DNA of 37,788 nucleotides from Caldisericaceae bacterium (GTDB lineage: Bacteria; Caldisericota; Caldisericia; Caldisericales; Caldisericaceae): contig JALVXB010000026.1 in assembly GCA_027023025.1 (NCBI GenBank), positions 1 through 37,788 of the forward strand, read 5' to 3'. The notes under the pieces are model-generated. The model saw only the letters and a list, made by a program, of their open reading frames with translations. It did no database searches and had not been told where the DNA came from. The translations under genes were made by a program, and so were the position numbers. Position 1 is the stretch's first letter. The number at the start of each line of letters is the position of its first letter. Of the stretch, positions 4,865 through 11,036 are shown in pieces.

Positions 4865-5970
4865 AGAAAAAGTATACTTTTATTATCGTAGTTTCAGTCG
4901 TCGTACTTTTTGGAGCGCTTGCTTTACGAAGCGTTTTTAAGCACACAGAGAAAAACCCGAAAGAGAGCAGCACAAAGGAAGCTCGCCCAGTTTTGCTTTA
5001 CGAAGATTCTGCGCGTAATTTTGAGTATATTTACCTGAATCCGATCAATTCTGAGCATGTTTACCTGGATCCAAACAATGCTAATGTATTATACCTTTTT
5101 CGTCCCAGTGGAAGTGGTAAATTTTACAAGGGAGAAATATACAAATCAACTGACGGTGGGAAAAATTTTAAGAAGTTAAGTGTAAATGGTTCAGCTGTTG
5201 CCGTGAGCCCGAAACACCCTGAGGTCGTTTTTGTTGGTGGAAACTCTGGTTTGTTTAAGTCCAACGATTACGGAAAAAGCTGGATAAAAACTGCACTTAA
5301 CGATGTTAGAGATGTGAAGTTTTCAACAGGTGGCATTCTGTATGTGATTGCGGATAAAGGCTTATTCGTATCGTACGACGAAGGAGAGCACTTCAATAAT
5401 GTCGGTTCGAACAAGGATGTACATCAATGGAATATATTTCCAGAAAGTAGTAAAGGCAATGTCGTCTATGAAAGTGCGCAACTAATGCATCCAAAACCTG
5501 AAATGAAAATGGGTAATATATTCCTCAAGTCTATGGATTATGGAAAAACATGGAAAGAAATTGACAGAGGTTTGAACTATCATCTCGTTACGGCTTTTGC
5601 AGATAATCCAGACGATGAAAGTATGCTATTTGCAGGAGCATCCATTGTTACAGGAGGGCCAGGAGCGCCAATAACCTCAAAAACAGAAACGGGCATCTTC
5701 AAGTCAACTGACGGCGGTTCTTCCTGGAAAAAAGTCCTTCCACTTGAATTAGTAAATGCAATTATAGTGAATCTGGATAACACAAATACGATATATGTGG
5801 GAGCGTTCAGAGGGCTGTTTAGATCTACCGATTGTGGCAACACCTGGAGCAAAGTAGAGTTAGGCGGTAGCTCAAAAACGGTGGTTGACGATGTAAAGCA
5901 AAGTCCTATCTCACACGACATTTACATCTTACAGAACGGGAAGCTCTATGTAATTCGCAAAGAGAGGTAA
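4861..5970 (+). CDS. Membrane-anchored Asp-box (BNR/sortilin-like) beta-propeller protein
   Basis: The 369-aa protein has an N-terminal membrane segment (about residues 5-22). Six Asp-box motifs of the S-x-D-x-G-x-x-W/F type follow, near residues 96, 134, 171, 224, 282 and 322 (for example KSTDGGKNF and RSTDCGNTW). Asp boxes mark BNR-type beta-propellers, found in sialidases, sortilin-like and photosystem-assembly-like proteins. No sialidase catalytic residues are visible, so a binding or scaffold role is more likely than catalysis. The GTG start is coupled to the upstream gene. A second Asp-box protein lies at 14678-16129, but that one is secreted and carries a different C-terminal domain. 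Confidence 0.85.
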   Translation: MKKKYTFIIVVSVVVLFGALALRSVFKHTEKNPKESSTKEARPVLLYEDSARNFEYIYLNPINSEHVYLDPNNANVLYLFRPSGSGKFYKGEIYKSTDGGKNFKKLSVNGSAVAVSPKHPEVVFVGGNSGLFKSNDYGKSWIKTALNDVRDVKFSTGGILYVIADKGLFVSYDEGEHFNNVGSNKDVHQWNIFPESSKGNVVYESAQLMHPKPEMKMGNIFLKSMDYGKTWKEIDRGLNYHLVTAFADNPDDESMLFAGASIVTGGPGAPITSKTETGIFKSTDGGSSWKKVLPLELVNAIIVNLDNTNTIYVGAFRGLFRSTDCGNTWSKVELGGSSKTVVDDVKQSPISHDIYILQNGKLYVIRKER

Positions 5971-5989
5971 ACTTCGTGCACTTTCTGAA

Positions 5990-6110
5990 GGAGCGCAGCG
6001 AGTAAAGCATTGAACTATACGCCAATTTCTTATGAGGTCCTTCGCTCGCTGGCGCTCGCTCGAGGACGACTCCATTCTTGTCACTCTGAGCGAAGCGAAG
6101 AGTCTCTGCC
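5990..6110. repeat. Cluster of dispersed repeats, copies 4-5
   Basis: Within 120 nt there is a GGAGCGCAGCGAG fragment (about 5990-6005), a palindromic TTCGCTCGCTGGCGCTCGCT element (6035-6072, inverse of copy 1), and a clear CACTCTGAGCGAAGCGAAGA element (6076-6110). The tandem arrangement of opposite orientations could fold into a long RNA hairpin. Confidence 0.65.
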
Positions 6111-6169
6111 CTAACAACTTCGCTTTTTGTTAATCTTACAAACATCAAACTACACATCCTAAACTTATA

Positions 6170-6203
6170 AGATCCTTTGCAAAAACAGCTCAGGATGACA
6201 GAT
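6170..6203. repeat. Dispersed repeat, copy 6
   Basis: AGATCCTTTGC...AGCTCAGGATGACA has the two arms of the common AGATCCTTCGC/GCTCAGGATGACA element, with an altered centre. Confidence 0.5.
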
Positions 6204-6779
6204 CACCTTTAACAAACCTTGTATTTATCAGTGCTCGTTTCAAAATCGCTAATTTAAGGCCCATAGACGCAAATCTTGAGAAAAATCGGGTAATTATACC
6301 TGCAAAATGCGTTAAACGGCCTTATTTTAGGGCAAACGAAAATTGCAATAAAGCCTGTGTTTATCAGCGTTTCCCAAAAATTGCCCTGAAATTATCAATT
6401 TGAATAAAATTAGCGAAAATAGAAACCCGCATAAATAAAGGCTTTCTTAATGGTCAAAAATAGGCAAAATCCAGCCGAAAAGTGAAAAATTGTTCGTATA
6501 AAGTAAAAATAGCAAAAAAGCAATTATTTATAAGGATTCCTGATATTTTACGCGCACCATTTGCCTTTAAAGGACAAACTATAATTTTACATTAAAGAGC
6601 AAAATAGACAACTTGCAAAGTAAAAATTGGTAATGTTAACCCGCTGAGTAGTTTTAGTACGCTTTGATATTTTTATATTTTGTGAATATATACTTTTTTA
6701 CCACATCGTGAATCTTCACTTTCACAAAAATATTGATCTAAACTTGAACAGAATTTTTCTAGTAAAAAAGAATCAATTG

Positions 6780-6808
6780 TTGACAAAAAAGCAAAAATCC
6801 ATTAAACT
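6780..6808 (+). promoter_or_regulatory. Promoter of the small membrane protein gene
   Basis: A perfect TTGACA (6780-6785) is 17 bp from TAAACT (6803-6808). Transcription would start about 15 nt before the ATG at 6831, leaving just room for the AAAGGAGGTG ribosome site. Confidence 0.65.
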
Positions 6809-6830
6809 TCTGGTGAAAGGAGGTGTGATT

Positions 6831-7133
6831 ATGAATAAAACAGTATTAGTTGCAGCAGGTATTCTTGCACTGATTGACGCATTCTTGAAAAGCACCACTT
6901 TGAATGTAATTATATTCATCGTGGTAGGTATTGCTGCTCTCTACTTCGGGTTTAAGTTATTCGGGAAAACGAAGATTGGCGGGACAATTGCAATGCTTAT
7001 GGGTATCCTATTTATTTTATTTGCATTCATAAAAGACATCGTAAGATACAATCCCGCACACATTGCAGTAAGTATCATTCTCGGACTTATTCTGATTGCA
7101 GCTCCATTTATCGGGAAACTCGTCCAGGAATAA
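6831..7133 (+). CDS. Small four-helix membrane protein of unknown function
   Basis: The 100-aa protein consists almost entirely of four hydrophobic segments (about residues 3-19, 23-43, 49-68 and 76-95) with short basic loops (KLFGKTK, KDIVRYN). I do not recognise a family. The start is the ATG at 6831 because AAAGGAGGTG lies eight bases before it. The frame stays open upstream to 6708, but that part has no ribosome site and would precede the promoter. It is a single-gene unit ending against the terminator shared with the converging ribonucleotide operon. Confidence 0.85.
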   Translation: MNKTVLVAAGILALIDAFLKSTTLNVIIFIVVGIAALYFGFKLFGKTKIGGTIAMLMGILFILFAFIKDIVRYNPAHIAVSIILGLILIAAPFIGKLVQE

Positions 7134-7135
7134 AA

Positions 7136-7160
7136 AAGTGGGGGCATCACGCCCCCACTT
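7136..7160 (-). terminator. Terminator of the nrdD-thyX-nrdD' operon
   Basis: A perfect 10-bp stem (AAGTGGGGGC / GCCCCCACTT, loop ATCAC) is followed on the minus strand by a run of T (TTTTTTA). There is no T run on the plus side, so it is oriented for the ribonucleotide operon. It starts two bases after the stop of the plus-strand membrane protein gene and may also protect that transcript's 3' end. Confidence 0.85.
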
Positions 7161-7181
7161 ACGGCAACAAATCAGGAGTTA

Positions 7182-8234
7182 TTAAAGGTCTTTAAAAGTT
7201 TTTCTTTTCTTAAACTCCTGCCTCTTTCCGTTGTTCCATTGCGAAACCGGCCTTAAATCAATCTGTTACTTTTATGACTTCCTATTTTTAGGAAGCGGTG
7301 CTAAATTTCTTTAGCACTCTGCATGTTACCATGCAGTTCGGACTGTTGCTTCACTCTTTTGAGTGTCCATTCGTTCAGTCTCTCACGGTGGAGTAAAATG
7401 TTCTCAAAGAGATATCTTTTCCTCTCTAAGTAAATAGTAGATCCATCATACAGATAGTGATAAATTGTAGCCAATTGATCAATTCCTCCATAGCGAATAC
7501 GAGCAATTCTTTTGCGGGAATAATTCAGAGAAGTCATAGGTAAATGAAGATTGTTAACAAAAACTATCCTCTGCAAATCTTTTAGAAATTCAGTATTGCC
7601 CTCTATACTAAACTCTCCTCCCGCATATAAATAGGTTTTACCGCTAGGCTTAATTACTTTTCTCGTTTGCTTTGTAATACAACCATCTGCATCAAAAATG
7701 CCTCTTACATAATGAGCAGTTAGATCTTTAGTAAGCATATCATAGAGAAAACGCACAGTAAAAGTTTTTCGTGGCCTAATACCAAATAATGAAAGATCAT
7801 TTTTAATTTTAGTAGATCTGAAATATACTTCCCATGCTTTAGTATCTTTATGGTAATAATCTTTTCCTTCCCAGCCCGTAAACTTTTTCCATAACAAAAG
7901 ATGCGGATAATCTTTCTCCGCCAATGTGATTCTGATTTTATTCTCAGTAATACAACCGTCGGCAGTAAAAAAGCCTAGCCAATATGCTTGTTCTTCACTA
8001 CTAATTTTTTCAAAAATGCTTTCGTTTAAATTGTACTTCCTTTTGAACATTTCACTCCTTCCGCCTCGTTGTCCCTGAAAAATGGAGTTCCGAGTCAATT
8101 AGAATGGATTTTAGTTGGGCACTTCTCTACCCAACGACGCGAGAATAAATCTCGGTCTTTTGCCGTTTCTCCTTTGGAACTACGGTGCCGTTCTCCAGAA
8201 CTAAATTCCCATTTTCGTCTTCTTTATACCTCAC
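7182..8234 (-). CDS. nrdD: Stand-alone glycyl-radical domain of class III RNR, split by a group I intron (exons 8129-8234 and 7182-7258)
   Basis: Exon 1 starts with GTG at 8234, seven bases after a strong GGAGG, and runs 35 codons to ...EIYSRVVG plus one T. Exon 2 starts at 7258. Joining them gives a 60-aa protein with RVVG|YLRPVSQWNNGKRQEF, the C-terminal radical motif of anaerobic NrdD. Gly35 would carry the stable glycyl radical placed there by NrdG. The large NrdD gene two genes upstream ends without this domain, so the enzyme is in two pieces that must associate. The join is inferred from the protein motif, from group I splice rules and from P1/P10 pairing. Without splicing, translation ends at TAG directly after Gly35. 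No nrdG is in the window. Confidence 0.93.
7259..8128 (-). ncRNA. Group I self-splicing intron with internal homing endonuclease gene
   Basis: The 870-nt intron follows a T (5' splice site) and ends in G, as group I introns do. P1: the exon end GTTGGGT (8129-8135) pairs with GCCCAAC (8114-8120), with U.G at the splice site and an 8-nt loop. P10: AAGT (8121-8124) pairs with exon 2 ATTT. P3: TCCATTC (8102-8108) with GAATGGA (7366-7372). P4/P5: CTCG (8091-8094) with CGAG (8065-8068) enclosing a short stem. P7: GACTG (7376-7380) with CAGTC (7341-7345). P8: 7352-7365 (CACTC AAAA GAGTG). P9: 7319-7336 (CTGCATG GTAA CATGCAG). P9.1: 7298-7317. P9.2: 7278-7295. The layout resembles the phage T4 td intron (subgroup IA) from memory. 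The endonuclease gene fills the loop after P5 and overlaps the 3' core. Confidence 0.93.
7301..8050 (-). CDS. LAGLIDADG homing endonuclease encoded in the intron
   Basis: The 249-aa protein has two LAGLIDADG motifs, YWLGFFTADG (residues 23-32) and YVRGIFDADG (114-123). It should therefore act as a single-chain, pseudo-symmetric endonuclease. Both motifs end in D-G, with the metal-binding aspartates kept, so it looks active. Such enzymes cut the intron-less allele and let the intron copy itself in, and some also assist splicing as maturases. The start is the ATG at 8050, four bases after GGAG. The frame upstream (to 8098) lies in ribozyme core sequence without a ribosome site. The last 25 or so codons also form the ribozyme's P3 3' strand, P7, P8 and P9, and the stop lies in P9.1, so the two functions are locked together. 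Confidence 0.92.
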   Translation of the reverse strand: MFKRKYNLNESIFEKISSEEQAYWLGFFTADGCITENKIRITLAEKDYPHLLLWKKFTGWEGKDYYHKDTKAWEVYFRSTKIKNDLSLFGIRPRKTFTVRFLYDMLTKDLTAHYVRGIFDADGCITKQTRKVIKPSGKTYLYAGGEFSIEGNTEFLKDLQRIVFVNNLHLPMTSLNYSRKRIARIRYGGIDQLATIYHYLYDGSTIYLERKRYLFENILLHRERLNEWTLKRVKQQSELHGNMQSAKEI

Positions 8235-8259: not shown

Positions 8260-8886
8260 TTATACAAAAAGTTTTAGATTGCTTTCACTAAAAATATTCG
8301 GTGCGACTTTTTTAACTTCTTCAAACATTGCTTTTGCCATCCGCCTTATCTCCCACTGCGCATGTTCGTCGCAGCGGAGTTTAAAAAAGTGCATCAGTTC
8401 CCGCGCGTTTGCAGTTGCAACGATTTTTGTTTCCGTTGCATTCGGCAGGACGAACCGCGCATCTTCAATCGGCACGAGTGCTGAAAGTTTGTCGTACGCA
8501 CCCGCAATGTATTCCATCGCCTTCAAAAACACCTTTTTTGCTTCTGGGTTTTGCTTCACAGTTTCTGGCATAACAAAAGGAAAGTTTCGCTCCTTAACAT
8601 ACCGCTGGCTCTGCTGAGTAAAGGCAAACAAACGGTGGCGTACAAACTGATGGGAGCACGCACGGGAAATTCCCTCAATTGCAAATGTAAAAGAAATGTG
8701 CTCAAACACCGAAAGGTGTCCCAACTTCAGCGCAAGTTCAATAAGGCGCTTTACATCTCCACTTTTCAATGTAAGGTTTATAACCCCGCCTTTATACCTG
8801 CTCTGCCTCATCGCTGTTGCAACGACGAGTTCTGGTTCTGGCGTATAAGAAATAAGTGCGACTTTTAGTGCAGTTTCCCGTTCCAC
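8260..8886 (-). CDS. thyX: Flavin-dependent thymidylate synthase ThyX
   Basis: The 208-aa length is normal. RHRLFAFTQQSQRY at residues 83-96 fits the family signature RHRX7S. ThyX makes dTMP from dUMP using methylene-tetrahydrofolate, FAD and NADPH. Typical features also visible are the N-terminal TPEPELVVATAMRQSR and the QWEIRRMA segment near the end. It starts with GTG 11 nt after the nrdD stop with only a weak AAGG, so it is probably translated by coupling. The radical-domain gene follows 25 nt after its stop. Placing dTMP synthesis inside the RNR operon makes metabolic sense, since both supply DNA precursors. It uses the folate made by the folP-folK pathway further right in the window. 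Confidence 0.96.
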   Translation of the reverse strand: MERETALKVALISYTPEPELVVATAMRQSRYKGGVINLTLKSGDVKRLIELALKLGHLSVFEHISFTFAIEGISRACSHQFVRHRLFAFTQQSQRYVKERNFPFVMPETVKQNPEAKKVFLKAMEYIAGAYDKLSALVPIEDARFVLPNATETKIVATANARELMHFFKLRCDEHAQWEIRRMAKAMFEEVKKVAPNIFSESNLKLFV

Positions 8887-8897
8887 ATTAAACCTTA

Positions 8898-10970
8898 TTA
8901 CAAATCTATATTAAACTGAATAGCGCCTTCCTCAGAATCGTTTTCCGATGGTTCGCCTTTTGCGTACTTTTCTGCAAGTTCAGCATCGCAATACGGACAG
9001 TACTCGTGCTCGCCGGGGATGTATCCGTGCTTCGGGCAGATGCTGAATGTCGGGGTAATCGTAATGTAAGGAATTTCAAAGTTATTTACGATTTTCTTTA
9101 TAAACACCTTCGCCTCTTCTCCGCTGTGCAGTGACTCCCCAAGGAAGAAGTGGATAACGGTCCCACCCGTCCAGAGCCTTTGAATGTCGTTTTGCTTCTC
9201 AGCAACTTCAAATGGATCGTCCGTATAGTCCACAGGGAGCTGCGCAGAGTTCGTGTAGAATGGGTCAACGCCTAACTCTTCCACTTCCTTTTCGTTTGCA
9301 ACTATAATGTCAGGATAAAGTTCTTTGTCCTTTAAGGCAAGTTCGTAAGAGGTGCTTTCACTTGGAGTTGCTTCGAGGTTGAACATACTGCCCGTTTCCT
9401 CCTGGAATTCCTGCATCTTCTCACGCATAAAGTTCAGGACTTCTACGGCAAATTGTATACCCTCTTCGTCTCCTATGTTCTTGCCCATAAAGTTCAAAAG
9501 CGCTTCGTTCATTCCGACGACGCCAATCGTGGAGAAGTGGTTGTCCCAATAGTGGCCTGACGACTTCTTAATAGGCTCAAGGTAAATTTTCGAATACGGA
9601 TACAGGCCAGCCTCTGTAAACGCTTCTATCGTTTTTCTCTTTACGACGAATGCGTCTTTTGCGGCTTCCATTATGTCGGAAACATAGTCAAAGAATTCCT
9701 TCTTCGTCTTTGACAGATAACCGATGCGCGGCATATTAATCGTGATAACTCCAATCGAGCCCGTGAGTGGTGCTGCGCCAAACAGTCCGCCGCCTTTGCT
9801 CTTTAACTCTTTCGTGTTGAGCCGAAGCCTGCAGCACATCGAGCGGGCATCTTCCGGCTTTAGGTCGGAATTTACGAAGTTTGCAAAGTAAGGCGTGCCG
9901 TACTTTCTCGTTGCTTCCCACATCGGTTCAAGCTCGGGATTGCTCCAGTCAAAGTCTTTATCAATGTTTATCGTTGGAATCGGGAATGTAAACGGCCTGC
10001 CGTTTCCGTCGCCTTCAATCATCGTTTCCCAGAACGCTCTGTTCACCATATCCATTTCTTTCTGCATGTCCCTGTAAAGCACTTCAGGGTGTTCTTTTCC
10101 GCCGACAATCACGGGACGGTCCTTCAGTAAAGGATGCGGGTGGATATCCAGAGTGATGTTTGAGAACGGAGACTGCCCGCCGGTCCTCATCGTCTGGTTC
10201 ATATTGTAAACGAATTCCTGTACCTGCTGTTTTACTTCTTTGTAGGAAAGTTTGTCAAAGTAAACGAACGGGGCAAGATATGTATCAAAAGAGCTGAATG
10301 CAACGGCACCTGCTGCTTCGTTCTGAAGGGTGAAAAGGAAGTTCATCATCTGTCCTAAAATAGAAGAGAGGTGTTTTGCAGGCTTTGAATACGGTTTTCC
10401 TGGCACGCCGCCAAACCCGCGCTTTATCAAGTCCTCAAGATCCCAGCCCACGCAATAAGCGCCTAAAAAGCTTAAATTGTGGATGTGCACCCAGCCATCT
10501 TTGTGCAAGTTGGCAATTTTCTTTGGATACACCTTATTGAGCCAGTACATCTTTTCCGCTTTTCCTGCAACAAACGCCTTTAAGCCCTGAATGGAGTAGT
10601 CCACATTTGCATTCTCGTGCACTTCCCAAGTGCTGTTTCCCAGGTATTCGTCAATAATGTCACTCGTTATGTGATTTTTAATTTCTCTGATTTCACGCCT
10701 GTGCTCACGGTAAAGGATGAACGCCTTTGCCGTCCCAAAGAATCCTTTGCGCATAAGGACAGTTTCAATTTTATTCTGGATAAGTTCAATGGAAAACGGG
10801 ATACCGTCGTGTTCATTTTCGAGTTCGGTAATCACGATGTTTGCAAGAAACTGCGCAGTTTCCCTGCCAAACTCGCCCGTTTCGTGCCCTGCTTTATAAA
10901 TTGCGTTTACGATTTTTTCTTTTTCAAAATCAACAACGCGTCCGTCTCTTTTGATAACTTTACGAATCAT
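8898..10970 (-). CDS. nrdD: Anaerobic ribonucleoside-triphosphate reductase NrdD, catalytic body lacking the radical domain
   Basis: The 690-aa protein begins with an ATP-cone regulatory domain (residues 2-95, KRDGRVVDFEKEKIVNAI). The ten-stranded barrel of class III RNR follows, including SMCCRLRLN with the Cys379/Cys380 pair expected to carry the thiyl radical. Near the end lies a metal-site segment SICPKHGYIPGEHEYCPYC (Cys645, His648, Cys658, Cys661). Normally RVxGY and a short tail follow within about 50 residues. Here the chain ends with an acidic tail (ENDSEEG) and a stop. The missing domain is the separate gene at 7182-8234. The ATG at 10970 follows GGAGGGAATT. It is the first gene of the operon. 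It reduces NTPs to dNTPs under anaerobic conditions once the partner is radical-loaded. Confidence 0.95.
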   Translation of the reverse strand: MIRKVIKRDGRVVDFEKEKIVNAIYKAGHETGEFGRETAQFLANIVITELENEHDGIPFSIELIQNKIETVLMRKGFFGTAKAFILYREHRREIREIKNHITSDIIDEYLGNSTWEVHENANVDYSIQGLKAFVAGKAEKMYWLNKVYPKKIANLHKDGWVHIHNLSFLGAYCVGWDLEDLIKRGFGGVPGKPYSKPAKHLSSILGQMMNFLFTLQNEAAGAVAFSSFDTYLAPFVYFDKLSYKEVKQQVQEFVYNMNQTMRTGGQSPFSNITLDIHPHPLLKDRPVIVGGKEHPEVLYRDMQKEMDMVNRAFWETMIEGDGNGRPFTFPIPTINIDKDFDWSNPELEPMWEATRKYGTPYFANFVNSDLKPEDARSMCCRLRLNTKELKSKGGGLFGAAPLTGSIGVITINMPRIGYLSKTKKEFFDYVSDIMEAAKDAFVVKRKTIEAFTEAGLYPYSKIYLEPIKKSSGHYWDNHFSTIGVVGMNEALLNFMGKNIGDEEGIQFAVEVLNFMREKMQEFQEETGSMFNLEATPSESTSYELALKDKELYPDIIVANEKEVEELGVDPFYTNSAQLPVDYTDDPFEVAEKQNDIQRLWTGGTVIHFFLGESLHSGEEAKVFIKKIVNNFEIPYITITPTFSICPKHGYIPGEHEYCPYCDAELAEKYAKGEPSENDSEEGAIQFNIDL

Positions 10971-11008
10971 AATTCCCTCCTTATTGCCCTCCTTTATTTC
11001 CTCGTTCT

Positions 11009-11036
11009 GTTATACCAAAACCAGATAAAAAATCAA
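11009..11036 (-). promoter_or_regulatory. Promoter of the nrdD operon
   Basis: On the minus strand TTGATT (11031-11036) and TATAAC (11009-11014) are 16 bp apart, leaving a leader of about 30 nt before GGAGGGAATT-ATG. I saw no NrdR-box pair. Confidence 0.6.

Follow-up and report, generated by a model that had tools for sequence, protein, structure and literature searches.

How can a gene that encodes the radical domain of a ribonucleotide reductase (RNR) still yield its product when 870 nt interrupt it one base past the glycyl-radical codon? The question is raised by a 60-residue gene on a contig from a Caldisericaceae bacterium (JALVXB010000026.1; its 37,788 nt, analysed as a whole, are called the window), in which the insertion occupies positions 8128 to 7259 of the minus strand. 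We hold with high confidence that the insertion is a group I intron of a phage-associated family, that it should be excised by splicing, that it carries a homing-endonuclease ORF, and that its host is the radical-domain gene of a split class III RNR. In this Caldisericales host, nrdD is followed by thyX and then by the separate radical-domain gene. The features of the locus are as follows:

8898 to 10970, minus strand: nrdD main gene, with an ATP-cone (PF03477) and the catalytic barrel, covering positions 1-529 of the 562 of PF13597.
8260 to 8886, minus strand: thyX, situated between nrdD and the radical-domain gene (PF02511, E 1.4e-69).
8129 to 8234, minus strand: 5′ exon of the radical-domain gene, with a GTG start at 8234, the radical glycine codon at 8132-8130 and a last base T at 8129.
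7259 to 8128, minus strand: group I intron of 870 nt, whose ends agree with those of an ORF-less homologue (L003:8373-8587).
7301 to 8050, minus strand: ORF for a LAGLIDADG homing endonuclease, located in L6 of the intron and comprising 249 codons and a stop.
7185 to 7258, minus strand: 3′ exon of the radical-domain gene, YLRPVSQWNNGKRQEFKKRKTFKDL, with a split Y codon and the stop codon after it.

The main NrdD protein (690 aa) stops after the Zn-site cysteines, ahead of the radical loop. The NRDD family is divided exactly between the two genes, with positions 1-529 of PF13597 in NrdD and 530-562 in the small gene, and together they make up one complete class III RNR. In the host genome (99.89% complete), no class I/II RNR (PF02867) was detected and no second copy of the radical domain was found, so that the interrupted one is the sole copy found. 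For these two reasons, splicing should be essential for DNA synthesis, if this RNR inventory is right. Class III RNR occurs widely in this split form. A separate radical-domain gene after NrdD also occurs in Nautiliaceae, other Campylobacterota, Thiospirillum, some Patescibacteria and a Woesearchaeota MAG (loci L004, L005, L009, L011, L019-L021, L023-L025, L027-L029, L031, L032, L035, L036 and L038); in other relatives the domain is fused, and one genome (G007) has a radical-domain gene with neither nrdD nor thyX adjoining it. A limited literature search found no description of a stand-alone NrdD radical domain.

The exon junction reads ...GTCGTTGGGT and ATTTAAGG... on either side of the insertion, with flanks CGC GTC GTT GGG T and AT TTA AGG CCG. 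Without splicing, the exon T and the intron AG form a TAG stop directly after the glycine codon. Removal of the intron gives an NrdD radical domain without interruption: translation yields VRYKEDENGNLVLENGTVVPKEKRQKTEIYSRVVG joined to YLRPVSQWNNGKRQEFKKRKTFKDL and a stop, and the joined exons read VRYKEDENGNLVLENGTVVPKEKRQKTEIYSRVVGYLRPVSQWNNGKRQEFKKRKTFKDL followed by the stop. The spliced protein matches PF13597 at positions 530-562 (E 2.1e-10) and contains the RVxGY radical loop, which matches the NRDD C-terminus. In a comparison with the genes of the family, the 5′ exon matches query residues 1-36 at 94% and the 3′ exon residues 36-60 at 96%. The initial annotation had proposed an insertion at the glycyl-radical codon of a stand-alone radical-domain gene and a continuous domain after splicing; comparison with relatives supports the first, and translation of the joined exons bears out the second. 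The boundaries, the U that ends the 5′ exon and the terminal G of the intron were correct on re-reading of the sequence.

Which elements of the insertion identify it as a group I intron? Those located are given below.

8114 to 8120, minus strand: internal guide GCCCAAC (3′ strand of P1), pairing with exon GTTGGGT at 8135-8129, with a U.G at the splice site.
8121 to 8124, minus strand: P10 strand AAGT, which may pair with ATTT of the 3′ exon (7258-7255), as read from the sequence.
8102 to 8108, minus strand: P3 5′ strand TCCATTC, with its 3′ strand at 7372-7366.
8094-8091 and 8068-8065, minus strand: P4, from sequence and covariation.
8086-8082 and 8076-8072, minus strand: P5, with one A.G mismatch in the window copy and perfect in L003.
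8045 to 8064, minus strand: 5′ strands of P6 and P6a, with 3′ strands at 7403-7390 (P6a) and 7388-7385 (P6).
7341 to 7380, minus strand: catalytic core, with P7 (7380-7376 and 7345-7341), J7/3, the P3 3′ strand, P8 (7365-7361 and 7356-7352) and J8/7.
7336-7319, 7317-7298 and 7295-7278, minus strand: P9, P9.1 and P9.2, respectively, from sequence and covariation.

All the helices claimed earlier (P1, P10, P3, P7, P8, P9, P9.1 and P9.2) could thus be located, and P4, P5, P6 and P6a were added. P7 (GACUG and CAGUC in the ORF-less homologue) is the pseudoknot partner of P3. The terminal G is present, and a P10 pairing of AAGU with AUUU is possible. Since no stem lies between P7 and P3, the intron is devoid of the P7.1/P7.2 of group IA. 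J3/4 has 7 nt here, which is longer than usual for group I introns.

The initial annotation had named an Rfam covariance search as a check that could speak against the assignment, and this search came out without a match to the intron. RF00028 matched neither in the window, nor in the whole genome, nor in the ORF-less homologue, at the gathering score or at a lenient threshold (E<=10 in the window). Whether RF00028 matches is, however, a question of detection; the structural definition of group I does not include it. Support from covariance has to be divided: it is absent for the Rfam model and present for a model built from the relatives of the intron itself.

When the ORF-less homologue was folded together with its exons, the minimum free energy (MFE) structure contained P1, P3, P4, P5, P6, P6a, P8, P9, P9.1 and P9.2 (z = -5.3). 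P7 is missing from this fold because it forms a pseudoknot, which such a program cannot draw. Plain MFE folding of the full 870 nt, or of an ORF-deleted version of the window intron, did not recover P3 and was set aside, as was a MAFFT alignment of L003 with the full window intron, whose 5′ part was misaligned because of the ORF.

Relatives were located in viral contigs by a pattern derived from two motifs flanking P7, and one phage intron (L079) by an endonuclease search. Four introns were aligned: those of the window (ORF deleted and P6a shortened, both by hand), of L003, of a virus (L076) and of L079. In this alignment, 95.5% of the cells are paired, and double-sided changes occur in 21 of the 62 pairs versus 7.6 in shuffles. 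The covariance model built from it, R1, gives 156.4 + 70.7 bits for the two halves of the window intron, 277.7 bits for L003, 236.2 for L076 and 207.5 for L079. R1 also matches two group I introns that are Rfam-positive (L074, 43.5 bits; L077, 41.7 bits) and finds more than 20 further members in viral contigs.

Over 23 distinct relatives, 94.8% of the cells are paired, with 385 double-change cells versus 110 +/- 10 in shuffled and fewer than 70 in slid controls. P1 is paired in 94.3%, with double changes at all 7 pairs and the U.G in 19 of the 23; P3 is paired in 100%, again with double changes at all 7 pairs. It should be noted that R1 guided the 23-member alignment, a bias in favour of the other helices but not of P7, since P7 lies outside the model. 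P7 is nevertheless 100% paired, with a G-C/A-U exchange in 9 of 22, and none of 500 shuffles reached the values observed for P3 and P7. Folding, covariation and the model from relatives outweigh the Rfam negative. As supported by the homologous ORF-less intron, the phage relatives, the covariation and the relatives-based model, we take the group I identity first proposed as settled by structure. Few of the introns detected by R1 attain the gathering score of RF00028, and most relatives are missed by it; this group is probably under-annotated.

A sister species ('Caldisericales bacterium', L003, WFZA01000026.1, the same contig as G001) carries an insertion at the identical base. It measures 215 nt versus 870 nt; its flanks are alike, the ORF is gone and the RNA core is kept. 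Compared between the two genus members, identity is 98.5% in the intron core, 92.8% in the exons and 91.5% in thyX. By these figures, constraint on the intron RNA is no weaker than that on the protein. Among 61 genomes around the host, the intron was found in the two genus members only, that is in 2 of the 18 family genomes. The intron-less junction proposed as a check was found in relatives: the radical-domain gene is uninterrupted in 14 of the 16 other family genomes, with GTN GGN TA intact, and the same holds for genomes belonging to another family in the class. One further R1 match among the 61 genomes, a weak one, is a 23S rRNA intron. It is of group I, contains a LAGLIDADG ORF and lies immediately upstream of TAACGAACGGTCCTAAGGTAGCGAA-like rRNA sequence in another genome of the family (L089:2808-2963, or G012:C142:7807-7962); its site and its gene differ from those of the RNR intron.

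The ORF of the window intron matches PF14528 (LAGLIDADG_3; E 1.2e-8, 35.5 bits versus a cut-off of 22.5), is full length and has motifs from residue 23 (YWLGFFTADGC) and from residue 113 (HYVRGIFDADGC). By profile and by these two motifs, its product is a LAGLIDADG homing enzyme, for which cleavage would be expected. Phage endonucleases are about 28-36% identical to it. No sequence relative was found in the PDB, and a single-sequence AlphaFold model (pLDDT 41.5) was discarded. The 14-bp P6a closes the ORF and holds part of a Shine-Dalgarno-like GGAAGGAG (8062-8055) and the ATG start, which the folded intron should hide. The last ~33 codons of the ORF overlap P6, P7, P3, P8 and P9 of the ribozyme core and extend into P9.1. 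The ORF-less sister therefore still gave a 33-residue protein match. Because the end of the ORF runs through core helices, its translation and the folding of the ribozyme should compete on one RNA.

Where did the intron come from? A viral contig of 49.6 kb (IMGVR_UViG_3300026512_000018; L076/L082) carries an nrdG-like gene, nrdD, thyX and a separate radical domain. Its radical-SAM-like protein stands in the place of NrdG and is assigned by position and a CxxxCxxC-type motif only. The viral NrdD (900 aa) has no ATP-cone and contains an intein-like insertion. The viral radical domain, MKKKQKLIKFTRVVG and FIRPIDSFNKGKKKEFKQRKSYDLNQYRDR, is interrupted in RVVG by an ORF-less intron. No viral thyX locus with the same cassette was found besides this contig. 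Between virus and window, the introns are 83.7% identical, the radical-domain exon DNA 62.4% and thyX 60.2%. The intron is thus far more alike than its surroundings, as would be expected for independent movement; structural constraint on the intron contributes too. The predicted viral splice site (GGT/TTC) lies 1 nt upstream of the bacterial one (GGG T/AT), in frame, and the guide of each intron fits its own exon. The intron is a member of a phage-associated family, and it was probably through viruses that this lineage acquired it.

The active-site cysteine of NrdD is occupied as well. In the sister species, in a Caldisericum exile MAG and in the virus, an insertion lies exactly at SM/C, and is an intein or intein-like:

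L003, about 5455-6660: insertion in the sister species, with intein N- and C-terminal regions over the NCBIfam cut-off.
L018, about 6130-7330: insertion in the C. exile MAG, with the intein C-terminal region over the cut-off.
L082, about 9990-11010, minus strand: insertion in the virus, judged intein-like by position and C...HN/C ends only.

The nrdD of the window has no intein. The one-nucleotide offset between the viral and bacterial introns, each with a guide that suits its own exon, could reflect retargeting at the RNA level, the intron having reverse-spliced into a neighbouring GGGU, rather than homing by an endonuclease. This would have taken place on a split RNR in which both radical residues (the cysteine by an intein, the glycine by an intron) are occupied by mobile elements traded between viruses and thermophilic bacteria. 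The proposal is speculative, and we consider it rather unlikely as it stands.

We infer the following course of splicing, cleavage, homing and split-enzyme assembly from sequence comparisons. After transcription, the ribozyme would pair GUUGGGU with its guide and use guanosine to cut after the U; joining of T/AT would restore the Tyr codon and the radical loop, and the 60-residue product would complete NrdD in trans. On unspliced RNA, the TAG would halt ribosomes after the glycine codon and so keep the ribozyme free of them, the resulting peptide being useless. The endonuclease would be made from unspliced RNA and cut intron-less alleles, into which the intron would be copied.

The homing proposed at the outset has indirect support: an intact-looking ORF with two motifs, a patchy distribution, empty sites, and homologues of the intron both in a virus and in capsid-like genes of phages. 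This part of the scheme has a serious competitor, somewhat less probable than even, in which the intron is spliced but now immobile, inherited vertically in the genus, with the ORF a remnant or a maturase only. Both genus members do have the intron at the same base and one has no ORF, as this would predict; however, the window ORF is full length with both motifs, occurrence in the family is patchy and a close relative of the intron resides in a virus. It is very unlikely that the intron folds but no longer splices, leaving the radical-domain gene dead and dNTPs to come from elsewhere. The failure of Rfam to recognise the core and the P5 mismatch of the window copy would fit such a decay, whereas exons that are open and conserved in two species (92.8%), a core more conserved than the exons and the failure to find a further RNR or radical domain in the host genome argue for a functional intron. 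Finally, a protein-level element such as an intein, or an ORF insertion with no ribozyme, can practically be dismissed: the insert encodes a LAGLIDADG protein, a kind also found in inteins, and the nrdD of the sister species carries an intein, but the insertion is closed in the exon frame by the immediate TAG, the ORF lies in another frame and is missing from the 215-nt insertion of the sister, where the RNA core is kept, and the helices covary.

A group I intron in an RNR gene is a known kind of element; its place here is unusual, and the viral counterpart makes its mobility testable. Placed directly after the radical-glycine codon of what is apparently the sole RNR, it would make DNA synthesis dependent on a ribozyme. 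Bacterial and viral introns in the same gene form a rare natural pair for testing intron movement between virus and cell. The locus also points to a phage-associated intron group that the general group I model of Rfam overlooks, and draws attention to a widespread split form of class III RNR in which the radical domain is a protein of its own.

Among known systems, the T4 nrdD (sunY) intron with I-TevII likewise combines a group I intron and an endonuclease ORF in an anaerobic RNR gene. However, it lies near codon 172-182 of 605, far from the radical glycine of an unsplit NrdD, belongs to group IA and encodes a GIY-YIG enzyme (record AF158101), in contrast to the LAGLIDADG protein described here. 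In bacteria, protein-coding genes seldom harbour group I introns; nrdE, nrdF and recA of Bacillus and nrdE of cyanobacteria contain them (PMC3984707). More than 100 are curated in RNR genes in RNRdb (PMC2795772); in phages, RNR genes commonly contain such introns, and examples are known from Bacillus and cyanobacteria (PMC2795772, PMC3653736, PMC3984707). The Bacillus and cyanobacterial introns share with the present one bacterial protein-coding hosts, a preference for RNR and links to phages, but reside in class I RNR genes. The introns of phage capsid-like genes (L079, L092-L099) have the same core, the U.G splice site and P9/P9.1/P9.2, but other host genes, often with several introns per gene; the endonuclease search found no related endonuclease ORF in them. 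Several group I introns stand close together in phage contigs (L092-L099, L077, L112), often in a capsid-like gene at VGGVNG/D. A limited literature search found no intron described at the radical glycine or in a stand-alone radical domain. As to the radical domain itself, GrcA/YfiD is, as here, a separate small protein carrying the radical glycine, and replaces a damaged part of pyruvate formate-lyase. It thus serves another enzyme, whereas here it is NrdD itself that is without a radical domain. Autonomous glycyl radical cofactors have been described (PMC12288474). The split class II RNR NrdJa/NrdJb (PMC5704485) and the split NrdA of phage Aeh1 (PMC2988022) are likewise RNRs of two pieces acting together, but differ from the split NrdD in class and in break point.
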